IMG/VR virus record: IMGVR_UViG_3300043437_000128 | Location: 1-21,420 of that record | DNA: 21,420 nucleotides | Direction: 5' to 3' (one strand) | DNA from: a virus | Part shown: positions 382 to 19,568 of the stretch, in pieces | Layout: every line of letters starts with the position of its first letter | Position numbering within the stretch: position 1 is the stretch's first letter | Position numbers and translations under genes: made by a program | The notes under the pieces: generated by a model | What the model was told of the DNA's origin: nothing | The model's database searches: none | The model's input: the letters and a program-made list of their open reading frames with translations, nothing else

Positions 382-621
382 TTATTTTGTAAACTTAGTT
401 AAGTCTTTATATCTTTCTTTTCCCCACACATTTAATCCTACGGGACCTTTTCCTTCAATAGTTACTGGAGCTTTTTTTACAGGTCTAGCTGCTGGTGTTG
501 GGCCTTTTGTGGCTCCAGCTACTTTTCCTAAACAACTGGTACATCCAGTTGCTCCATTTGGTAGTGTTCTTTTCTGACATGAACAACTCATTGAACTACC
601 ACAGTTTGGACATTTTGCCAT
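382..621 (-). CDS. Small zinc-ribbon protein
   Basis: This 79-residue protein begins MAKCPNCGSSMSCSCQKRTL with C4xxC7, C13, C15, and then C27xxC30 (GCTSCLGK), a short zinc-ribbon-like cluster. The rest is Pro/Ala/Lys-rich and probably disordered, ending in NVWGKERYKDLTKFTK, a short conserved-looking tail. Function is unknown; such small Cys proteins are common next to phage structural genes. The leader has the AAAAACCAAC element 5 nt before the ATG, shared with two other genes in the window. Confidence 0.78.
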   Translation of the reverse strand: MAKCPNCGSSMSCSCQKRTLPNGATGCTSCLGKVAGATKGPTPAARPVKKAPVTIEGKGPVGLNVWGKERYKDLTKFTK

Positions 622-2962: not shown

Positions 2963-3475
2963 TTATTTCAAGAAAAGTAATTTGTACTTAGTTGAATTAA
3001 TAGAATCTTTTACAAGATCTAAATTATTGACAATCTCAGAATAAGGTAACATACCTTGAAGTTTGTTTACCATTGCGTAAATATCTCTAAGATAGCTTAC
3101 ACCATCTGCTACAGTATCAAGAGTTCTTGGAGCTACTTCACTATAAGAAAGAATCTTTTCAGCTGCTCCTTGATAACCTTCTATAAGAGTATCTGCATGA
3201 TCAGGTAAAGCATCATAAAATTCATTCAATGCTTTATGTGCTGCAAATGATCCTTCTCCAGTTACTTTTAAATGAAGTTTATGAATACTTGTTCTTGCAT
3301 TCATTAATTCAGTAGCACAAGCAGAAACCATATTATCTAATGAACTACCACCAACTCCTGTACTTGGTGTAGGTTGTGCTTTAGCTGGTTCACTTTTAGG
3401 TTGTGTTACAGTAACCTCTGGTCTACTAATAGTTTTAGTAGATTCTGGGTTTCTTTTTAACATTCTTTTTTCCAT
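2963..3475 (-). CDS. Dps-like ferritin-superfamily protein
   Basis: This 170-residue protein has a 45-residue Pro/Ser/Lys-rich tail, then a four-helix ferritin-like body. Residues 65-103 read HKLHLKVTGEGSFAAHKALN then EFYDALPDHADTLIEGYQG. The candidate ferroxidase ligands H68, H80, D95 and E99 have the spacing H-x11-H-x14-D-x3-E, which is the same as E. coli Dps (H51, H63, D78, E82). The V-x-G-x-x-F-x-x-H context also matches Dps. Dps proteins form 12-subunit shells that oxidise iron and bind DNA; the flexible basic-leaning N-terminus could be the DNA- or capsid-binding tail. It overlaps the previous gene by one base and lies among virion genes. Dps-like domains of unknown role occur in some phages. 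Confidence 0.82.
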   Translation of the reverse strand: MEKRMLKRNPESTKTISRPEVTVTQPKSEPAKAQPTPSTGVGGSSLDNMVSACATELMNARTSIHKLHLKVTGEGSFAAHKALNEFYDALPDHADTLIEGYQGAAEKILSYSEVAPRTLDTVADGVSYLRDIYAMVNKLQGMLPYSEIVNNLDLVKDSINSTKYKLLFLK

Positions 3476-3777
3476 TATTTTTTCTTTATGCTAACTGTTT
3501 TTTTATAAATCGGTTTATTAGGGTTAGCAGATTGATAACTAATTTCTTTTTTATTATTGGTTTTATTTTTAACTACTGCAGTAGTTCCTTTACCATATTT
3601 ATGATAAATTACAGCAGATTTTTCATCACCAGGATATTTTGTAGTTTCTCCTTTATTATTTTTATGTTTAAGTACAGCTAGTGTACCACCAGATGTTGTG
3701 GTTTTAGTAGTTAAACCTTTTTTATTTTTTTTAACTGTTGTTATACCACCGGTTTGCATTTTTTTCTTTATTGCCAT
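3475..3777 (-). CDS. Basic beta-rich repeat protein, 100 aa
   Basis: This 100-residue, Lys/Thr/Asn-rich protein begins MAIKKKMQTGGITTVKKNKK with the K-M-Q-x-G-G motif seen in the upstream basic array. The body has repeated short units of the type K-x-K-x-x-G-x-T-T followed by alternating hydrophobics (GGTLAVLKHKNNKGETTKYP, KSAVIYHKYGKGTTAVVKNK), suggesting a small beta-meander, and ends KKTVSIKKK. No family is recognised. Its stop overlaps the start of the Dps-like gene (TAATG), so the two are translationally coupled. Confidence 0.75.
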   Translation of the reverse strand: MAIKKKMQTGGITTVKKNKKGLTTKTTTSGGTLAVLKHKNNKGETTKYPGDEKSAVIYHKYGKGTTAVVKNKTNNKKEISYQSANPNKPIYKKTVSIKKK

Positions 3778-3788
3778 TTTAAAATGTT

Positions 3789-4487
3789 TTAGTTATTGCG
3801 TTCAGCCCCTTCAGTACCTCTTGCATATTGATTACTTGATTCAATATCACCGGCAAGTATTGCAACAGCTTCATCAATTATTAATTCTATAATATCATCT
3901 TTAAACTCACATGGAATATTTACTAAAGATTCTATACTAGTATAAGGATCAATACAACCTTGTATCTGTATCTTGATTGGTTGACGGTAATATACTAAAT
4001 CTGCAGATTGAACATCAAAGTCATTGTTTGTGTATATGTTTACATTGTTACCTTTTAGGGTAGCAAATGTTTCTCCCCAAACAAAATCAGGTCTCTTATT
4101 TACATCTCTCAATAACTGATTCAGGTTACCCTCCTCTGCTAAATATACTGTCATTCTTCTTTTATCACAACAGTCTTTTTTAGCATACACATCTACGCGT
4201 TTCCACTGTAAATATTCAGCCGGAAGATTACCTGTGTAATAGTATTCCTTATTTGCTAGGTTCAAAGATTGTGTACTTAACAAAACTTGTAAGTCATCTT
4301 TTCTTCTAGTAGATTGTTCATCACCTTCCCTTACCTGATTAATACCATGAAGTTGTCTCCGGGTCCATTCAACCTGAGCTTTATTAAAAGCTTCAACAAC
4401 CTGCCAGCACTCTATGTTATCATAGTCATTGCTGTCAAGCTTATTAAGCCTTTGCTTCATTTTTATGGTGATGGTGCTGTTTAACAT
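3789..4487 (-). CDS. Head-tail connector / ring protein
   Basis: The 232-residue product resembles crAss-like connector (ring) proteins that sit below the portal. The N-terminal helical part has MKQRLNKLDSNDYDNIECWQ (residues 10-29) and a helix ending in WTRRQLHG. The middle is beta-rich (LPAEYLQWKRVDVYAKKDCC, then RRMTVYLAEEGN, WGETFATLKGNNVNIYTN). The C-terminus has GCIDPYTSIESLVNIPCEFK and a final helix DDIIELIIDEAVAILAGDIES. The combination of a helical N-terminus, beta core, and a C-terminal helix with D-E-A-x-x-I-L-x-G-D is typical of adaptor proteins. Its place after the capsid genes fits. It would connect portal to tail in a podovirus. Confidence 0.78.
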   Translation of the reverse strand: MLNSTITIKMKQRLNKLDSNDYDNIECWQVVEAFNKAQVEWTRRQLHGINQVREGDEQSTRRKDDLQVLLSTQSLNLANKEYYYTGNLPAEYLQWKRVDVYAKKDCCDKRRMTVYLAEEGNLNQLLRDVNKRPDFVWGETFATLKGNNVNIYTNNDFDVQSADLVYYRQPIKIQIQGCIDPYTSIESLVNIPCEFKDDIIELIIDEAVAILAGDIESSNQYARGTEGAERNN

Positions 4488-4490
4488 CTC

Positions 4491-4646
4491 TTATTTATTT
4501 TTAGCCATTTTCTTTAATGTAATTGCCAGAGCTTTTCTCTTGGGTGTACATGTTGCTTTAGTCATTGGAGTACAGTAACCTTTATGAGCTGGATTGATTG
4601 CTTTTTGAATCCACTTCTTGTCAGTTTTTTTCTTTGCTGTTGCCAT
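4491..4646 (-). CDS. Small 51-aa basic protein (KKWIQKAI type)
   Basis: An ATG at 4646 opens a 51-codon frame ending in TAA: MATAKKKTDKKWIQKAINPA, then HKGYCTPMTKATCTPKRKAL and AITLKKMAKNK. Proteins with KKWIQKAI near the start and LA-TLKKM near the end are a recurrent small basic type in environmental phages, in my recollection, with unknown function. Here the middle part is replaced by a Cys-containing loop with two Cys (C25 and C33). It sits 2 nt after the repeat protein and 3 nt before the connector gene, so it is clearly part of the operon. Confidence 0.78.
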   Translation of the reverse strand: MATAKKKTDKKWIQKAINPAHKGYCTPMTKATCTPKRKALAITLKKMAKNK

Positions 4647-4648
4647 GA

Positions 4649-5713
4649 CTATTTCTTTTTAATTGCGCCACCTTTTCTTTTAATGACACCACGTCCTTTA
4701 AGAATATCAGCTTTAGTAATCTTACCATCTTTGTTTAAATCTGGAAAACCACCTTTAGCATACTTTTTCATAGCTCCTCCTTTTTGCTTATAAACACTAA
4801 GCTTTTTTTTCATTGCAGCTAGTTCAGCTTTAGAACGTACTCTACTTTCACCTTCAGAATCATTATATTCATTTTCTCTATCAACTTTTGCTTTAGATGC
4901 ATTATATGCACTAGGTGCATAAAATTGTGTACGTGCAACACTGTTTTCAGGCAATGTATCACTTGCAGCCATTTTGGGAAACTTTTGCATTAATTGTTGA
5001 TTATATGTTTTTGGTGTTTTAATCACAGTACCCTTTTGAGCTTTAACTAATTTTTTAGTAACACCACCCATTTTACGTTTACCTATTGATACAGTTCCTA
5101 CACCAGAAGCAGATCTTACACGACCTGGAGCAGGTGAATGTTGTACTGGAACAGAAGCACCAAATTTAGCTTTTGCTACTGAACCCCCTTTAGCCATTTT
5201 GTTAGTCTGAACAATTTTTTCAGGCATTTTTTTCATAGCTTCACCTTTAAGTTTCATTTGCATCCCGTTGTGTTTCATTTCAAGACCCTTCTTTTTCATT
5301 TCTAATCCTTCTAGTGTCATTGGATACGGATCTGTAGATTTTGCTTTTCTAATAACAACTGAATTAGTTCCACCTTTTTGCATTTTTTTAGCATTTGGAC
5401 TTGCCTGTTTTTCTGCCCATTTAGATGTATCTGGTTTATTACTTTCCGTAGGTGGAATATAACCTGATCCTTTTTTTCTAACATACTTCATTGTTTTTTT
5501 AGTAGATACAGGTTTTTGTCCCATTGCTTTTTGCATTGCGGCAACAGGACCACCATCTTGATATTTCTTTACAGAGCCTCCTTTTTTAAGCATAGCTCCT
5601 GTGGAAGTTCTAGGGTTATTACCATACTTTGGCATACCAACAATTTCTGCTGAACCTCCTTTTGCCATTTTTTTCATTGCTCCACCACAAGAAGCACATC
5701 CCATTTTTTTCAT
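4649..5713 (-). CDS. Lys-Gly-Gly repeat protein with EF-hand calcium loop
   Basis: This 354-residue, very basic protein is built from spaced repeats of a short motif, [KM]-x-[KQ]-x-G-G: AKGG (17-20), KKGG (43-46), YQDGG (51-55), QKGG (112-115), AKGG (174-177), KMGG (214-217), AQKG (225-228), QKGG (310-313), AKGG (319-322) and RKGG (346-349). Residues 136-163 hold four 7-residue repeats beginning with Gly (GLEMKKK type). Residues 325-336, DLNKDGKITKAD, match an EF-hand/dockerin calcium loop at positions 1, 3, 5, 7, 9 and 12. The N-terminus has MKKMGCASCGG, a possible CxxC metal site. Function is unknown. I infer a virion protein whose repeats bind the capsid or DNA. Confidence 0.8.
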   Translation of the reverse strand: MKKMGCASCGGAMKKMAKGGSAEIVGMPKYGNNPRTSTGAMLKKGGSVKKYQDGGPVAAMQKAMGQKPVSTKKTMKYVRKKGSGYIPPTESNKPDTSKWAEKQASPNAKKMQKGGTNSVVIRKAKSTDPYPMTLEGLEMKKKGLEMKHNGMQMKLKGEAMKKMPEKIVQTNKMAKGGSVAKAKFGASVPVQHSPAPGRVRSASGVGTVSIGKRKMGGVTKKLVKAQKGTVIKTPKTYNQQLMQKFPKMAASDTLPENSVARTQFYAPSAYNASKAKVDRENEYNDSEGESRVRSKAELAAMKKKLSVYKQKGGAMKKYAKGGFPDLNKDGKITKADILKGRGVIKRKGGAIKKK

Positions 5714-5716
5714 GAC

Positions 5717-6181
5717 TTATTTTTTTAATGATTTATTAGATTTAATTGGAGTTTGAACAGCACCGCCTCTTTTTTTCTCAAGATTCCAACCTTTTTTAAA
5801 CATCTTAACATATAAAGGACTAAGAGCAGCATTTAAAATAGCAGACCCTACTGCAGCAGTTCTACTTTCTTTTTTTTCATCAGAGTTTTTTGGTAAATTC
5901 TTGTAATCTTGTTTATAATTTTTCTTTTCCCCTTTACTCATTTTATATTTAGGTGATTTATCCTTAGAAATTCTTTTAGAATTTTTTGGATCCAGATCAT
6001 ATTCTTTTATTCTTTGAATACTCTGATCAGTAGAAAGAGGAAAACTTTTTCTTTTATATTCAGCACCTCTAATACGTGATGCAGCTTGTGGACTCATTGG
6101 ACCTTCTCTTTTCACTTCAGTTCCTGTTTGAGCTTTACGTAATGGTTTTTTACTAACAATTTTTTTAATTACCTTTTTCAT
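5717..6181 (-). CDS. Basic Lys-rich protein with short hydrophobic segment
   Basis: The 154-residue protein starts MKKVIKKIVSKKPLRKAQTGTEV, where KAQTGT resembles the K-x-Q-x-G-[GT] motif repeated in the next gene. Most of the body is Lys/Ser/Asp-rich and likely disordered, with a more hydrophobic stretch at about residues 108-130 (TAAVGSAILNAALSPLYVKMF) that could be an amphipathic or membrane-interacting helix, then KKRGGAVQT and a poly-Lys end. No family is recognised. It could be an internal virion protein; the hydrophobic helix also allows a role at the host membrane during DNA entry, which is speculative. Confidence 0.72.
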   Translation of the reverse strand: MKKVIKKIVSKKPLRKAQTGTEVKREGPMSPQAASRIRGAEYKRKSFPLSTDQSIQRIKEYDLDPKNSKRISKDKSPKYKMSKGEKKNYKQDYKNLPKNSDEKKESRTAAVGSAILNAALSPLYVKMFKKGWNLEKKRGGAVQTPIKSNKSLKK

Positions 6182-6193
6182 TATATATAAGTT

Positions 6194-6703
6194 TTAACAA
6201 TTCCACTTCCTTAGAGAAAGAGCCTTTCTAGTAGGTCTTCCTTTTTCATCCTTCATAGGTCCAGGCATACCTGACATCCTAGCACAGAATGACTTTCTTC
6301 TTTTGGCCGGTTTACTATCCGGATCAAGTTTAGATGGCTTAGTAGTTACTGCCATCTTAAGATTACTTCCAGGATTAGCAGCTCTATAACTTGCTACTCC
6401 TTTTGCATTTAATCCTCCTGTAGGATTCTTTCCCTCCTTACGGGTCCAAGCTGGTGTTGATCCACCACTTTTCATTTTAGGCATTTTATCATTTTTCTTA
6501 TGCCAATCTTTTTCAGCTTTAACTCCTTGCTTAACAGTTTTAGCATTAGCTGTTCTGGTTAAACTGATAGTATCATATGAACCTTTGTTTTTATTTGTAT
6601 GGTTCACCATAATATCACCAACTTTACCTTCACCTCTTTTTGTAGTTTTTTTATATACTACATGCTTTTCATTACCGGTGGTAAGTTTAACCTTAGCTGC
6701 CAT
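6194..6703 (-). CDS. Basic protein with C-terminal DUF6321-like domain
   Basis: The 169-residue product has a basic N-terminal half (residues 1-75, ending in KMPKMKSGGS, a Lys-x-Gly-Gly motif) and a C-terminal domain with TPAWTRKEGKNPTGGLNAKG, then AANPGSNLKMAV, then RRKSFCARMSGMPGPMKD and GRPTRKALSLRKWNC. The motif order AWTRKEG-NP-GGLNAKG ... RR-SF-ARM-GM-GP-D--G-PTR-ALSL--W is one I recall as a short domain of unknown function (DUF6321-like) in many phages of aquatic origin. The domain name is from memory. Role is unknown; strong positive charge suggests nucleic-acid or capsid contact. Confidence 0.8.
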   Translation of the reverse strand: MAAKVKLTTGNEKHVVYKKTTKRGEGKVGDIMVNHTNKNKGSYDTISLTRTANAKTVKQGVKAEKDWHKKNDKMPKMKSGGSTPAWTRKEGKNPTGGLNAKGVASYRAANPGSNLKMAVTTKPSKLDPDSKPAKRRKSFCARMSGMPGPMKDEKGRPTRKALSLRKWNC

Positions 6704-6705
6704 GA

Positions 6706-6891
6706 CTATTTCTTTTTAGTTTTGACACTACCTCCCTTTTTTCTTTCAGTTATGTTGATTACACGGTTTTGAGTTTTAGCAGCTCTACCTAAAAGTCTAT
6801 CAGCTTTTTTTTCTCTACCTTCATCAACAGCCTTGTAACCTTTCTTTACAAGTCTATTTTCTTTTTGTGTTAATCTTTTTACTCTATCCAT
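6706..6891 (-). CDS. Very basic 61-aa helical protein
   Basis: By my count 22 of 61 residues are Lys or Arg. The first 50 residues look like a single amphipathic or coiled helix pair (TQKENRLVKKGYKAVDEG and KKADRLLGRAAKTQNRV), followed by ERKKGGSVKTKKK, a Lys-Gly-Gly motif and poly-Lys end. This composition resembles small DNA-condensing proteins, but no family is recognised. Its last codons and stop (AAAAAGAAATAG) lie 2 nt before the next ATG and probably serve as an A-rich translation-initiation region for it. Confidence 0.72.
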   Translation of the reverse strand: MDRVKRLTQKENRLVKKGYKAVDEGREKKADRLLGRAAKTQNRVINITERKKGGSVKTKKK

Positions 6892-6909
6892 GACACATAA
6901 GTTTAGTTA

Positions 6910-7248
6910 TTACACATTTTTAACTCTTCTTCCCATTCCTACTTTAGACTTCTCAGCTTTTTTAGCAGCCAGTTTAGAAGGTGTTAATTCACTTTTTGTT
7001 TTAGGTGTATCCTTAGATATTCTCTTGGTTGGCCGGCAGTATTCATTTTTACCACCGGCACCACAAGCTTTTCCTGATTTAGTATCTTGCCATTTCTCTG
7101 CTTGCCATCTTTTAAGTTCTGTTCCTTTACTAGTTTTTCTTACATTGCCAGAACCTTTACGGCATTTGGCAATAGCTTGAGAAGCTCTAGCTGAAGGAAA
7201 CACAGCGTACTGTGCTTTTACTTTTGAATAACACGCATCTTTAGGCAT
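6910..7248 (-). CDS. Basic Cys-containing protein (DUF5872-like from memory)
   Basis: The 112-residue product begins MPKDACYSKVKAQYAVFPSA, followed by RASQAIAKCRKGSGN, LKRWQAEKWQDTKSGKACG, and EYCRPTKRISKDTPKT, ending in Lys-rich helix and GMGRRVKNV. This order (CY-KVK-Y-FPSA...AKCRK...LKRW-EKW...CG...YCRPTKR) is one I recall from a domain of unknown function (DUF5872-like) found in environmental phages and giant viruses. The family number should be checked. Four Cys (C6, C29, C62, C71) might bind a metal. It is strongly basic and part of the array between capsid and connector genes. Confidence 0.78.
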   Translation of the reverse strand: MPKDACYSKVKAQYAVFPSARASQAIAKCRKGSGNVRKTSKGTELKRWQAEKWQDTKSGKACGAGGKNEYCRPTKRISKDTPKTKSELTPSKLAAKKAEKSKVGMGRRVKNV

Positions 7249-7270
7249 TACTTAACAGATTAAAATATTA

Positions 7271-7450
7271 CTATTTACTTGGCTCAGCTGTTTTAGGAGC
7301 TGTGCTTAATCCACCTACGCGGCCTTTTGGAACTTTTTGTACTACTAATGGTGAGTTAAGACCAACCATTACTCCCTTGCTTCCAGGGATTTTTTGTACT
7401 TGCAAACTTGGATTTGGGTTATTAATTTTCCCAGTTGTGTATTGTGCCAT
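7271..7450 (-). CDS. Small 59-aa Pro/Gly-rich basic protein
   Basis: An ATG at 7450 opens a 59-codon frame ending in TAG, giving MAQYTTGKINNPNPSLQVQK and ending TAPKTAEPSK. It contains two related segments, LQVQKIPGSKGVMVG and LVVQKVPKGRVGG, an imperfect internal repeat of about 14 residues (V-Q-K-[IV]-P...G). It fills the otherwise empty gap between two basic genes, uses the same short A-rich junction upstream, and has the basic Gly-rich composition of the array. No family is recognised. Confidence 0.7.
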   Translation of the reverse strand: MAQYTTGKINNPNPSLQVQKIPGSKGVMVGLNSPLVVQKVPKGRVGGLSTAPKTAEPSK

Positions 7451-7455
7451 GATAA

Positions 7456-7851
7456 TTATTTTTTAGAAGTTTTACTAGCACCACCTGTTTTGTATTTGTA
7501 AGGAGCTTTCTTTTCTTTGTAGTAAGTTGTCCCATCACTTTTAGTAACCTTAGTCTGAGTTCTATAACCAGAAGGTGTTCCTTTTCTATTTACAGTAGTT
7601 GTAGTACCTTTAGCGTTTTTAGCAGTGCTTGAAGTATTTGTATTTCTTCTGTTAATATCTAAGTCTCTTCTTAATACTTCTTTATCAATATAAGTTCTAG
7701 ATTCTTTTGGTTCAGTTCTACCAAGACCAAAGTTTTTATTATTAAGTTTTAATTGAGAAGCTCTAACCCTAACATCAGAAGGACTCATAGAAGCCACCTC
7801 TTTACTTTTTTTCTGTTTAGTTTTAGTAACCTTGTCTTTTGTTGTTGCCAT
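7456..7851 (-). CDS. Basic Lys/Thr-rich protein of the protamine-like array
   Basis: The 131-residue protein is rich in Lys, Arg, Thr and Ser with few hydrophobic residues, so it is probably disordered. The first 20 residues are Lys-rich (KVTKTKQKKSK), the middle has an RRDLDINRRN segment, and the C-terminus has a beta-prone TTVNRKGTPSG...TTYYKEKKAPYKY stretch ending in a YKTGGASKTSKK tail with the Lys-x-Gly-Gly motif shared by its neighbours. Function is not known. Charge and position among virion genes suggest DNA or capsid-interior binding. Its final AAA codons and stop sit 5 nt before the next start. Confidence 0.75.
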   Translation of the reverse strand: MATTKDKVTKTKQKKSKEVASMSPSDVRVRASQLKLNNKNFGLGRTEPKESRTYIDKEVLRRDLDINRRNTNTSSTAKNAKGTTTTVNRKGTPSGYRTQTKVTKSDGTTYYKEKKAPYKYKTGGASKTSKK

Positions 7852-7863
7852 TTTATTTTATAT

Positions 7864-8880
7864 TTAAGAGTTCCAATACTTCTCGCAAGCAGTATTGAGA
7901 TCTTTCAAAATATCCTCATTTAAAGGATTCTTCAAGTACTCAATAACATCAGATACATTTCTACCAAGTAAGTTATTTAACTTAGCATGATATAAATAAC
8001 CATCTGGCTTACTTATAATATACTTAAAAAAACTGGAATCACGTACAATTGATTTAATTTTTAGTGTTTCCATGTCCATATTTGCAGCTTCCATAAATGA
8101 TTTGGCTGCTCTTTCTTTATTGGTTTCTCCGCCTTCTCCGTTGATATACAAGTCCATGTTTTCATAGATGACATCATTTGGAGTTGAACGTTTATAGCTT
8201 GTACTATTTAAATCTACAATTTTTGCAATGTAGAATAATTTAGTACTGTTTTTGTCAAATAATTTCTGAAGTTCAGAAAGTGCTTTGTTACGCAATTTCT
8301 TGTATTCAGTTCTTACCATAACAGTTTCTTCTTCTTTATCTAAGTAAAACTTAGGAGGAACTGCTTTGGATCTTGCATCATCATAGCTTTTAGCTACAAT
8401 TGAAAATCCACCCGCTTCAATGGCATAAAGCTTAACTCTATCAAAAGGATCTTTTGGATCCAAGTATAAAGGCTCATTACCACAGCTAAGTGTAATCTTA
8501 TTCCAGAACTCAGTGTTATCTGGTCTAAGTAATTTTACTTTATTCCAGAAATCTACATCTTCAGGGTTAAGGACATTTGCGGCTAATTCTTTTTCTAGTT
8601 CAGAAACAGCTTCCCTTACCTGCTTAACTTTAGCTAATCTTTCCTCTTCAGGTAATAGCTTAATCTCCGGTGCATACTCATTAAGACCAGTGATGTATCT
8701 TGTCACACCATTGTTCTCTAAACATGCAATTTGTTCAGTATGTGTTACTCCATCAAATAGAGTCATACCATAATCTTCTAAGCCCATGTTAGAAGTTCTA
8801 CTGTCAAAGAACGGACGTACTGTAATTGCCGTTTTTCTCATTGAGCCTTTACCGGTCTCAACCATTGTGAAATTTTCCAT
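7864..8880 (-). CDS. Capsid-proximal conserved protein, function unknown
   Basis: This 338-residue protein follows the capsid terminator. It has a basic N-terminus (KGSMRKTAITVRPFF), a charged helical segment at about residues 77-115, twin motifs DFWNKVKLLRPDN and EFWNKITL near residues 108-130, and a C-terminal half with RNKALSELQKLFDKN, TPNDVIYENMDLYING and MDMETLKIKSIV. I associate similar proteins with the gene after the capsid protein in Bacteroidota phages but know no function. Virion protein or assembly factor are both possible. Its leader carries the AAAAACCAAC element 6 nt before the ATG. No promoter was recognised in the 73-nt gap. Confidence 0.8.
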   Translation of the reverse strand: MENFTMVETGKGSMRKTAITVRPFFDSRTSNMGLEDYGMTLFDGVTHTEQIACLENNGVTRYITGLNEYAPEIKLLPEEERLAKVKQVREAVSELEKELAANVLNPEDVDFWNKVKLLRPDNTEFWNKITLSCGNEPLYLDPKDPFDRVKLYAIEAGGFSIVAKSYDDARSKAVPPKFYLDKEEETVMVRTEYKKLRNKALSELQKLFDKNSTKLFYIAKIVDLNSTSYKRSTPNDVIYENMDLYINGEGGETNKERAAKSFMEAANMDMETLKIKSIVRDSSFFKYIISKPDGYLYHAKLNNLLGRNVSDVIEYLKNPLNEDILKDLNTACEKYWNS

Positions 8881-8904: not shown

Positions 8905-8942
8905 ATAAAAAGAGAGAGTATCACTGATGACACTCTCTCTAG
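8905..8942 (-). terminator. Rho-independent terminator after the major capsid gene
   Basis: Minus-strand AGAGAGAGT pairs with ACTCTCTCT, extended by four inner pairs (G-T, T-A, C-G, A-T) around a TCAG loop, and is followed by TTTTTATT. It starts 12 nt after the capsid stop. Genes beyond it would be reached by read-through or another promoter, which would set capsid protein expression above theirs. Confidence 0.85.
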
Positions 8943-8953
8943 TTTTTTAAGTG

Positions 8954-10576
8954 TTAGAATGATCCACCAGTGATTGGGTTTCTCATAACAATTTTCAAGA
9001 CTTTAGTTGGATCTTTAACCCAAATAGCTGGCATTGTTTGAGACATCATTACACGGTATCCATTGAATTGTCCAGAAGACTGGAACCCTTGAGTTCTACC
9101 CATGTAATCCATTGTACCATTTTGATACCACCATTTCAATTGATTATCCCAAGACAATTTCAATAAGTAGATATTGTCATTAGTATTATCAGTGATGTCA
9201 AAGATAATGAATGAATAAGAAGACAATGGGAAACCATCAATAATTGGGTTCTCAATATCATTTGTATGAACGTTGTCAAATGCAGGATTCAATACAAATT
9301 TCACGTTAGCCAAGAATGGAATAACATAAGAAGTGTAAGCAAATCCAAAGTTCAAGTCCATACCTTTACCAGTGATTGCACCGATATCAGCAGCCTGAAT
9401 CAAAAGACCAGAAGATACTGCTTCTCTTTTGATAGCTTCATTTACCATACGCATTCCACCCATACCAGTTTGAACTACTAAGCTACGCTTAGGATCTGGA
9501 CCTTGGAACTCAACTTTACCATTAAAGAAGTTGTAGATTTCTCCACGGAACAAATCCAATGTAAAGTTATTTTTGTTGTATACTCTTTTGAAAGAGTTAT
9601 CCAATTGTTTCCAAAGACCGACAGATAATCTGATATCATCTGGACCATCTTGTTTAACACGTCCACCATGTCCCCACATCAAGTAAGTCTCAATGTCAGT
9701 TGCAATTTTAGACAAGTGAGCAGATTCCAAAGTAGTTAAGAAAGTTCTTGACAAATCTCCATTGTCAAATGCTTTTTTCACTTTGTCTTTACCCATTACT
9801 TTAACCATGTCCTCTAGGGATGTGATTGAAGGGTCCAAGTTTGATTTATCAAATGTTCTCCAGATCTCAGTTACAGGAACTGTACCATCTGCATTCATTC
9901 CACCTTTAATCATCAAGTCAGCACGAGATGAGATAGAATAGTGTACGTGAGCTTCAGCACCTCCTACAAAGTTGTAGAATTCACGGAAACCAGTTCTTGT
10001 TTGGATGTCAGAGAATCTCTCTCCATATTCACCTCTTGCAGAACCTTTACGGAATACTTTAGTACCATTTGCTAAATACTTGTTATCCAAGAATTTATAG
10101 TTGTCATTATCAACTAATTGTACTGTATAGATGAAACCGTCACCTACAGGAAGAATATCTTCTGTTGGTACAATGTACATCTCAGCTCCGTTGTATTTGT
10201 CATATGTGATCATATCACCATGTCCAAACTCACGTCTGCTTAATTTGATACGGAATGTAGTACCATCTACTCCTTTGAAAGAGTTACTTGGTTCAATATC
10301 CTCAATGATGTAAGGAAGATCCAAAGATACTGGAGTCTGCCATTTGTACTCACCACGAGCATTATCAACCATGATTACATTTTTCCCACCAAAACTTGAC
10401 ATTTGGTAAAGAGGCATTTCAACTTTTTGAGCCATAGCCCATAAGTCAACTGGACCTAAATCCATAGGCTCAGAATCTTTCAGCATGTTAACCAAGTGGT
10501 ATGAATCCACATGGGAACTTGCTTGATACGCGGTATCTCTGAGGAATATACCATTGTTTAAAACTGGAGTTGCCAT
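8954..10576 (-). CDS. Major capsid protein (HK97-type, crAss-like)
   Basis: The 540-residue protein starts MATPVLNNGIFLRDTAYQ and contains SYHLVNML, GPVDLWAMAQ and SFGGKNVIMVD in the N-terminal region, then many beta-rich segments with frequent Asp/Asn/Gly turns. I recognise this as the crAss-like phage major capsid protein type, expected to adopt the HK97 fold and form the icosahedral shell. Its position after a scaffold-like gene and its own downstream terminator agree. Codons appear regular, with many GGT/GTT and ACC-free choices, consistent with high expression. No propeptide cleavage site is obvious. The leader is C- and G-poor (AACAAAAACAAATAAATA). Confidence 0.9.
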   Translation of the reverse strand: MATPVLNNGIFLRDTAYQASSHVDSYHLVNMLKDSEPMDLGPVDLWAMAQKVEMPLYQMSSFGGKNVIMVDNARGEYKWQTPVSLDLPYIIEDIEPSNSFKGVDGTTFRIKLSRREFGHGDMITYDKYNGAEMYIVPTEDILPVGDGFIYTVQLVDNDNYKFLDNKYLANGTKVFRKGSARGEYGERFSDIQTRTGFREFYNFVGGAEAHVHYSISSRADLMIKGGMNADGTVPVTEIWRTFDKSNLDPSITSLEDMVKVMGKDKVKKAFDNGDLSRTFLTTLESAHLSKIATDIETYLMWGHGGRVKQDGPDDIRLSVGLWKQLDNSFKRVYNKNNFTLDLFRGEIYNFFNGKVEFQGPDPKRSLVVQTGMGGMRMVNEAIKREAVSSGLLIQAADIGAITGKGMDLNFGFAYTSYVIPFLANVKFVLNPAFDNVHTNDIENPIIDGFPLSSYSFIIFDITDNTNDNIYLLKLSWDNQLKWWYQNGTMDYMGRTQGFQSSGQFNGYRVMMSQTMPAIWVKDPTKVLKIVMRNPITGGSF

Positions 10577-18916: not shown

Positions 18917-19213
18917 TTAATCTTTAAGGTTATCTAATTTGTCTTCCTCTTCTTCAGACATTAAAGCTTTCCATTTTCCTAATGGACATTCAGATGATAA
19001 AGATCTTGTTTTAAATGCTAAAGAACAACCACACTCATCACAACAAGGTGCTGTTCCTCGCATAACACATTTTGTACCTTTGCTTGTACATGCATCACAA
19101 ACTTCCATTCTGTGTTTTGCAACATCTTCCACAAATTCATCACGTCTAAGGGTATTGGTAATTCCCTCCATGATTTTGTTCCTATCCTTCCAAATTTGTT
19201 TTAATAGACTCAT
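18917..19213 (-). CDS. Small zinc-binding protein
   Basis: This 98-residue protein carries eight Cys: C39xxC42, C49, C57, C58, C61, C63 and C76, within a segment reading CCDECGCSLAFKTRS and CPLGKW. This looks like one or two zinc-ribbon knuckles. Small proteins with the CGCSL-KTRS-CP-KW arrangement are a type I associate with Bacteroidota phages near packaging genes, though I know no assigned function. The first 35 residues are basic and helical. The annotated start overlaps the HU-like gene by 32 nt; an alternative ATG at residue 15 (19171) would remove the overlap. Role is unknown; nucleic-acid or terminase binding is possible. Confidence 0.75.
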   Translation of the reverse strand: MSLLKQIWKDRNKIMEGITNTLRRDEFVEDVAKHRMEVCDACTSKGTKCVMRGTAPCCDECGCSLAFKTRSLSSECPLGKWKALMSEEEEDKLDNLKD

Positions 19214-19568
19214 ACTTTTCTGTTTTAAAAGTGTGTTTTCTTATTTCCTCTAGGGTAATCTTTTTTTCTAGTTCAATAAGAAGATCAAGTTTTTCTTCAA
19301 TCCTCACTTTTTTTGAATAGGCACCAAAAGTTGAGGTATCATGTTTTTCTAATGCAGCATTAGATCTTTCAATTGATCTTCTTATCCAACTAGCTTTTGC
19401 ACTAAAATGTCCTAACCCTTCTACATTTATCCTTGGATAAGACAAATTTGATAAACAGCTTCTAACATTTTTGTAAAGAAATTCTACAAAATCTTCAACC
19501 AATGTTTCTTCAACATTCATTTCTTCTGCTGCTTGTCTGTAGAGCTTAGACGCTTTCTTGGGTATCAT
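19182..19568 (-). CDS. HU/IHF-like DNA-binding protein
   Basis: The 128-residue product has the arrangement of the HU/IHF superfamily: helical N-terminus with AAEEMNVEETLVEDFVEFLYKNV (written in two parts: residues 13-20 and 21-35), then LSNLSYPRINVEGLGHFSAK around residues 39-58, where the INVEGLGHF segment corresponds to the conserved V-x-I-x-G-F-G-x-F strand. The usual DNA-binding beta arm is not obvious, and instead residues 60-128 form a charged helical extension. crAss-like phages are known to encode IHF-like proteins near their capsid genes, which fits. It would bend or compact DNA, perhaps at packaging sites. It overlaps both neighbours (23 and 32 nt), indicating coupling. Confidence 0.72.
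   Translation of the reverse strand: MIPKKASKLYRQAAEEMNVEETLVEDFVEFLYKNVRSCLSNLSYPRINVEGLGHFSAKASWIRRSIERSNAALEKHDTSTFGAYSKKVRIEEKLDLLIELEKKITLEEIRKHTFKTEKYESIKTNLEG

Follow-up and report, generated by a model that had tools for sequence, protein, structure and literature searches.

Phage proteins that are injected along with the DNA determine the first minutes of infection, and small basic phage proteins are readily overlooked by both gene annotation and proteomics. Among described systems, the internal proteins (IPs) of T4 are small, basic, DNA-binding proteins that are packaged, ejected, and poorly conserved (PMC9026906). Within the Crassvirales, gp45 of phicrAss001 is a virion cargo protein (PMC10172136). 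For polyvalent proteins as a class, injection has been proposed (Iyer et al. 2017, PMC5512222). We analyzed a window of 21,420 nt (the whole stretch of DNA under study) from an aquatic crAss-like phage; a Crass_capsid gene and the order capsid, gp33-like, ring, as in phicrAss001 gp32-gp33-gp34, place it with the Crassvirales. Between the gp33-like gene and the ring gene lie eight co-directional basic genes separated by only 2 to 22 nt (Table 1). Literature searches returned no description of this cassette or of DUF6321. In our judgment it is somewhat more likely than not that the eight genes represent a single allele of a swappable cassette, encoding small basic proteins that reside inside the head and are ejected with the DNA.

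Table 1. Positions and properties of the cassette genes and their neighbors in the window.
Feature	Coordinates	Strand	Properties	Match
Basic gene after ring gene, 100 aa	3475..3777	-	lineage-specific; outside the recurrent cassette	
Ring protein gene, 232 aa, downstream border	3789..4487	-		PHROG 29507, 4.7e-13
Cassette gene 8, 51 aa	4491..4646	-	HKGYCTPMTK-TCTPKRKALA module	
Cassette gene 7, 354 aa	4649..5713	-	repeated KGG motifs; ends RKGGAIKKK	
Cassette gene 6, 154 aa	5717..6181	-	N-terminal PLRKAQTG; late KRGG	
Cassette gene 5, 169 aa	6194..6703	-	N-terminal GEGKVG-IMVNH module; C-terminal DUF6321 (PF19846)	Pfam, 1.1e-24
Cassette gene 4, 61 aa	6706..6891	-	pI 10.9; C-terminal KKGGSVKTKKK	
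Cassette gene 3, 112 aa	6910..7248	-	DUF5872 (PF19197); four Cys	Pfam, 3.4e-14
Cassette gene 2, 59 aa	7271..7450	-	pI 10.5; G-R/K-x-GG family	
Cassette gene 1, 131 aa	7456..7851	-	pI 10.4; C-terminal KTGGASKTSKK	
Upstream border gene, 338 aa	7864..8880	-	position matches phicrAss001 gp33 and phi4:1 gp063	
Terminator-like hairpin with T-run	8911..8940	-	between major capsid gene and 338-aa gene	
Major capsid protein gene (Crass_capsid)	8954..10576	-		PF23898, 3.4e-30
Acidic protein gene, 427 aa	10604..11887	-	pI 4.8; putative scaffold	

The eight products have calculated pI values of 10.3 to 10.9 and net charges of +12 to +27 per 100 residues. The eight consecutive genes are drawn from the 10 most basic of the 30 genes in the window (P = 1.3e-4 under random gene order); this run of basic genes is not a product of chance. 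A K-x-G-G motif occurs in five of the eight proteins, or in six if R-x-G-G is included. Among 268 nonredundant cassette proteins, 203 carry K-x-G-G, compared with 76.5 +/- 6.5 in shuffled sequences, and the corresponding figures for KKGG are 123 and 15. The motif is concentrated near the C terminus, where [KR]xGG-x(2-9)-end was found in 85 of 226 proteins (4.5 in shuffles), and KAQxG was also overrepresented (42 versus 1.6). The K-x-G-G motif forms a lysine-rich C-terminal tag shared among cassette proteins. It is enriched 3.9-fold in cassettes and 2.7-fold in three proteins at the cargo position (described below) but not in other structural proteins (0.5-fold) or the remaining proteins (1.0-fold). 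Base composition was rejected as the source of the charge; despite a purine excess in the cassette (63% versus 58%), K-x-GG is far above the level in residue shuffles.

A basic cassette occupies the same site in all 43 close relatives, which were chosen by capsid sequence. Across 70 cassettes, ranging from 1.4 to 5.0 kb, 490 of 505 ORFs (97%) have a pI above 9.5. Gene content is hypervariable even among close relatives, yet the genes are under purifying selection, with a median dN/dS of 0.14. In relative G001 the cassette is the only such basic cluster (10 of the 11 most basic ORFs are consecutive), and in relative G005 it is the main one.

Several of the window's genes belong to recurrent families. 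Gene 2 belongs to a family found at 37 loci. Gene 3 passes the Pfam gathering cutoff for DUF5872 (53.9 versus 27.5 bits), a domain found in 24 of the 43 cassettes and matched by 306 phage records. Gene 5 passes that for DUF6321 (87.3 versus 28.5 bits) and is matched by 545 phage records; its two modules are fused here and are individual genes in other cassettes. The module of gene 8 recurs in 27 of the 43 cassettes. Gene 7 has an EF-hand-like FPDLNKDGKITKADILKGRGVI close to its C terminus, and gene 1 had no clustered homologue in the examined cassettes except in the near-identical contig L002. AlphaFold modeled the 169-aa and 112-aa proteins with low confidence (pLDDT of 69 and 55), and Foldseek with the 169-aa model gave no match below an E value of 0.001.

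These results bear on a first-pass annotation of the window. The eight ORFs it had placed at 4491 to 7851 are all present on the minus strand with the lengths it reported, and the strong basicity it described was borne out. It proposed checking whether the set recurs between the capsid and ring genes of relatives; a basic cassette does recur there, with variable content. Its statement that most of the proteins carry Lys-x-Gly-Gly needs qualification, since the 112-aa and 51-aa proteins lack the motif. The 51-aa gene and portions of the 354-aa gene are modules that also occur in other cassettes. The 100-aa gene that it counted as a ninth member has no counterpart in any examined relative. Finally, its suggestion that the proteins are injected internal proteins with a common destination gains indirect support from the conserved site in the head operon, the C-terminal tag, the cargo-position modules, and the clusters in unrelated phages.

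In more distant relatives the site is mostly empty: the whole cassette is absent at 47 of 67 loci, with the same border genes. Since whole cassettes are missing in so many cousins, the cassette is unnecessary for building the particle. In seven of eight empty-site genomes, DUF5872 or the 50-aa family was found within a large ORF, and in six of the eight the large protein that contains a cassette module could be assigned to the cargo position. In G012 and G014 to G017 this protein is encoded directly after the muzzle gene, the position of phicrAss001 gp45; in G011 it is cargoA-like. The cargo assignment was made by synteny; sequence profiles gave no link between the cargo-position proteins and gp45 or gp46, and profile-profile alignment of the three cargo-position families against phicrAss001, phi4:1, and Lbo-JY46 proteins yielded no significant link, ring R1/gp43 being the only, weakly supported one. 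Some cargo-position proteins in relatives are polyvalent, combining SET with DUF5872 and DUF5754 or SET with ART-PolyVal (an ADP-ribosyltransferase).

Small basic families homologous to those of the cassette are also clustered in unrelated marine isolates; shuffled and reversed controls gave zero matches. Homologous families lie in tandem in marine T7-like phages, Zobellviridae, and roseophages (HTVC033P, P-SCSP2, S-CBP4, MEP402, and CRP-9). In T7-like phages such clusters adjoin scaffold or capsid genes, whereas the HTVC033P cluster precedes an amidase gene and the CRP-4 cluster lies at an operon end, both away from scaffold and capsid genes. These clusters differ from the cassette in their shorter proteins, their few K-x-GG tags, and the virion type. 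The S-SM1 record labels its DUF5872/DUF6321 protein hypothetical, which is uninformative because the record leaves some proteins detected by mass spectrometry unflagged. Likewise, the mass spectrometry-based structural labels of phi4:1 are no test of the cassette because phi4:1 lacks it. The cryo-EM paper on P-SCSP1u modeled the portal, adaptor, nozzle, fiber, and capsid, and no mention of mass spectrometry was found in its text.

Two observations lead us to favor an internal, ejected role: cassette modules occur in cargo-position proteins of genomes whose site is empty, and the same families form clusters in marine phages that are unrelated to this one, in many cases next to scaffold and capsid genes. 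According to this proposal, the proteins would be made late, together with the head genes, and would most likely enter the procapsid, probably because their charge attracts them to the acidic scaffold and by means of the lysine-rich K-x-GG C-terminal tag. They would remain with the packaged DNA, accompany it out of the portal during infection, and act in the host as first-arrival DNA-binding or counter-defense proteins. The packaging claim is directly testable in existing isolates, and if the tag does direct cargo into the head, it would represent a novel packaging signal. A broader hypothesis, which we put forward tentatively and consider rather doubtful, is that DUF5872, DUF6321, the 50-aa families, and further small basic modules make up a common kit that circulates among otherwise unrelated crAss-like, T7-like, T4-like, Zobellviridae, and roseophage genomes, encodes exchangeable proteins delivered by the virion, and moves between stand-alone cassettes and polyvalent cargo, with K-x-GG serving as the packaging signal in the crAss-like clade. 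Turnover at a fixed site, together with modules common to crAss-like and widespread marine phages, would open a path to many unknown early-acting proteins.

Formally, the products could instead be late, non-virion nucleic acid-binding proteins whose action is confined to the infected cell (e.g., to the nucleoid of the host, RNA, or DNA concatemers awaiting packaging), the location among head genes merely providing late expression. Small basic Lys-rich proteins are generic nucleic acid binders, no proteomic detection of a cassette protein is known to us, and the T4-like cyanophage protein in which DUF5872 and DUF6321 are fused adjoins terminase and neck genes and is not known as a capsid component. 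However, relatives with an empty site carry cassette modules within large proteins at the cargo position, and the K-x-GG motif is common to the cassettes and three cargo-position proteins and unenriched in other genes; both findings speak against this explanation. We regard it as unlikely, although it is the alternative to be taken most seriously. The chromatin set envisaged by the first-pass annotation, in which the proteins mainly condense or neutralize DNA in the head together with HU/IHF-like and Dps-like products, would fit the strong positive charge, the Lys-rich tails, and the location among head genes. Yet DUF6321 was wholly absent from eight checked cousins with similar, 97- to 124-kb records, and no substitute basic cluster was present in the four of these cousins checked for one; for this reason DNA condensation does not require the cassette. 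Moreover, a Dps-like (DUF5856) gene adjoins the ring gene in four of four empty-site genomes and is independent of the cassette, and the ORF at 19182 to 19568 that had been labeled HU/IHF-like had zero sequence matches in Pfam, PHROG, or PDB. A chromatin set is thus improbable for this dispensable locus.

The position between the capsid and ring genes might also suggest a minor role in decoration or head-tail cementing, with the proteins bound to the outside or the portal vertex and filling the capsid-ring interface. Extreme charge, low complexity, and hypervariability are ill suited to a fixed lattice site, however, and empty-site cousins keep the same border genes, so we consider such a role very unlikely. 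Least plausible of all is a selfish insertion hot spot, with homing endonuclease-driven accretion of ORFs useless to the phage. Several cassettes do contain HNH-like ORFs, and sizes at this single site are graded from 0 to 5 kb, but the low dN/dS, the near-uniform basicity, and the retention of the same families in unrelated isolates all argue against it.

The internal-protein reading is closest to the situation in T4. Like IPI, IPII, and IPIII (and related basic IPs of T-even phages), the cassette proteins are small, basic, and several per phage; they are poorly conserved from one relative to another, have a link to head assembly, and have a short peptide in common. This peptide is mainly C-terminal and Lys/Gly-rich in the cassette, whereas in T4 it is an N-terminal propeptide cleaved by gp21; the search of the window for a prohead protease found none. 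The cassette also differs in having about four to ten genes per operon and in that its packaging is presumptive. No IP family appeared among the PHROG or Pfam matches of the cassette proteins, and the best reading is that the cassette may be a nonhomologous functional counterpart of the T4 IPI-IPIII locus. As for Crassvirales cargo (phicrAss001 gp45, gp46, and gp47), the link is that large proteins encoded at the corresponding position in this clade contain cassette modules and K-x-GG; the cassette proteins themselves differ in being mostly 50 to 350 aa, stand-alone, and encoded at the gp33/gp34 site, with no sequence link to gp45. Polyvalent proteins, which combine at least two disparate effector domains, are represented among the cargo-position proteins of relatives, where DUF5872 is fused with SET and another protein carries ART-PolyVal, whereas the window has separate genes of single modules or one fusion. 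In T4-like cyanophages, gp114 (T4-GC 119) joins DUF5872-like, CWxGY-NCV-like, and DUF6321 modules that are individual genes in cassettes; it is basic and carries K-x-GG, as cassette proteins do, but is a single 443-aa protein adjoining the terminase small subunit.

Among the flanking genes, the ring protein matched phi4:1 gp62 in a phmmer search (9e-16). A family search with the 427-aa acidic protein gave no match; phi4:1 gp065, encoded between portal and capsid, carries no mass spectrometry annotation as structural. A sigma-70 promoter scan gave fewer matches than the shuffled expectation. Hairpins similar to that preceding the 338-aa gene were found in 82 of 92 spacers of relatives.

The window, a 21.4-kb virus fragment, encodes a capsid protein that matched Crass_capsid (PF23898; 3.4e-30) and a portal and terminase that matched phage head families. 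Its order of capsid gene, 338-aa gene, and ring gene is that of gp32, gp33, and gp34 in phicrAss001 and of gp064, gp063, and gp062 in Cellulophaga phi4:1. The eight small basic open reading frames (ORFs) named by the first-pass annotation were all found between the 338-aa gene and the ring gene, a run referred to here as the cassette; the ninth basic gene that it listed is present in the window but had a counterpart in none of the relatives examined. The 169-aa cassette gene joins two modules that other cassettes carry as separate genes. A hairpin similar to that of the window was present in 82 of 92 spacers of relatives and could lower cassette expression relative to the capsid.

Features of the window and, where an L-number precedes the position, of loci from other phages
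Feature	Position	Strand	Remarks
Cys-rich basic protein	382-621		79 aa, pI 9.8; near window end
Dps/ferritin-like gene	2963-3475		DUF5856, PHROG 858; 3' of ring gene in almost every relative, whether or not a cassette is present
Ninth basic gene	3475-3777		
Ring gene	3789-4487		Cassette border
Eight cassette ORFs	Between ring gene and 338-aa gene	-	pI 10.3-10.9; spacing 2-22 nt
338-aa gene	7864-8880		Other cassette border
Terminator-like hairpin and T-run	8911-8940	-	Just 3' of capsid gene
HTVC033P small basic genes	L337:3408-4753		Seven, consecutive, unannotated; pI 10.8-12.0
Large post-muzzle proteins	L217:9250-13590, L332:12600-17132, L226:14339-17065		SET; one also ART-PolyVal

Among close relatives chosen by capsid similarity alone (about 90% identity or more), all 43 with the site covered, window included, carried a basic cassette at this site. 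Across 70 distinct cassettes, comprising capsid-chosen loci and further loci chosen by DUF5872 (PF19197, the 112-aa gene), 490 of 505 ORFs had a pI of >9.5, and the site spanned 1.4 to 5.0 kb. Homologous pairs were under purifying selection (median dN/dS, 0.14; 494 pairs). In the 123-kb relative G001, the cassette site holds an unbroken run of 10 of that genome's 11 most basic ORFs, and the longest such run in relative G005 is likewise located at this site.

The border genes are adjacent, with nothing between them, in phicrAss001, phi4:1, phi17:2, and Leptolyngbya phage Lbo-JY46, and the Lbo-like loci L092 to L099 have no ORF there. At capsid identities of 66 to 87%, the site was empty (67 nt or less) in 47 of 67 distinct loci; the remaining 20 carried one to eight ORFs, nearly all basic, over 0.14 to 2.9 kb. 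DUF6321 (PF19846, the C-terminal part of the 169-aa gene) was found nowhere in eight empty-site records (97 to 124 kb), nor was a substitute basic cluster found in the four such records examined in full. HNH-endonuclease-like ORFs inside several cassettes (L007, L008, L050, L069, L124, and L163) are a possible engine of gene turnover, and the picture is of a fixed site with repeated gain, loss, and shuffling of content. Contigs L198 to L204, which carry capsid relatives (66 to 84%), are binned with genomes of bacteria from several phyla (Bacteroidia, Chitinophagaceae, Campylobacteraceae, and others), which leaves the host uncertain.

Among 268 nonredundant cassette proteins, 203 contained [KR]xGG (76.5 ± 6.5 expected when each protein was shuffled) and 123 contained KKGG (15 in shuffles). 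The former clusters near the C terminus, the chain ending 2 to 9 residues past GG in 85 of 226 proteins versus 4.5 after shuffling, most commonly in a form close to K-[KR]-G-G-[SA]-[VI]-K-x-K-K. Another motif, KAQxG (42 versus 1.6 in shuffles), frequently follows a basic N-terminal stretch. Across six genomes of relatives, enrichment of the combined motif was 3.9-fold for cassettes, 2.7-fold for three large proteins whose genes follow the muzzle gene, 0.5-fold for other structural proteins, and 1.0-fold for the remaining proteins; being composition-corrected counts on related genomes, these figures show association, not function.

The same families occur in unrelated phages. DUF6321 matched 545 and DUF5872 matched 306 annotated phage records, largely cyanophages, plus Pelagibacter phages and others. 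In T4-like Syn9, an alignment placed both in a single protein, gp114, adjoining terminase and neck genes. T7-like P-SCSP2 has five basic genes (pI 10.2 to 11.4), including both DUF5872 halves and DUF6321, between scaffold and capsid; in HTVC031P, KBS-P-1A, and S-CBP4, DUF6321 and a 50-aa family occupy the interval from the scaffold position to the capsid gene, and in P-SCSP1u they lie 3' of the capsid gene. Crass-like cassette homologues were found for four of the seven clustered basic genes of HTVC033P, a cultivable Pelagibacter phage, and for three in MEP402, three in CRP-9, and two in CRP-4. Isolate proteins matched cassette families in phmmer at up to 9e-38, and the first set of them gave no match to shuffled or reversed cassette proteins. 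The MEP402 cluster is just upstream of the terminase gene; those of HTVC033P and CRP-4 are not adjacent to capsid genes.

A large frame (571 to 1,513 aa) encoded DUF5872 or the 50-aa family in seven of eight genomes with an empty site; in cassette genomes, the frame was always 49 to 123 aa. Close examination of five genomes (G012 and G014 to G017) placed the gene for the module-bearing protein directly 3' of the muzzle gene, itself named by position, with weak profile support for gp44; in G011, the module-bearing protein is cargoA-like. The phicrAss001 gene at the post-muzzle position encodes gp45 (cargo protein 1), which mass spectrometry detected in virions and which was seen in the capsid and tail (PMC10172136). 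Profile comparison gave no link between module-bearing proteins and gp45, so the cargo assignment rests on gene order.

On balance, the cassette products are probably internal head proteins ejected with the DNA, and packaging, DNA binding, ejection, and any anti-defense role are inferred. The closest working model is the T4 internal protein locus: cassette proteins are small, basic, head linked, and hypervariable, they share a terminal peptide, and they exchange modules with cargo-position proteins. T4 internal proteins are basic, DNA binding, ejected, and variable between relatives; they copurify with core protein gp22 and carry capsid-targeting peptides (PMC9026906). Cassette proteins matched no T4 internal protein family, and the likeness is therefore one of design, not membership. 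The main rival, that these are late proteins confined in action to the infected cell, seems rather unlikely. The virion chromatin set, Dps-like gene included, that the first-pass annotation had also proposed is weakened, because cousins without a cassette keep a similar genome size and the Dps-like gene does not follow the cassette.

Two post-muzzle proteins are polyvalent, combining SET with DUF5872 (9.2e-20) and DUF5754 in G014 and with ART-PolyVal in G003; injection with DNA has been proposed for polyvalent proteins (PMC5512222). The SET and ART-PolyVal proteins are putative effectors unusual for crAss-like phages.
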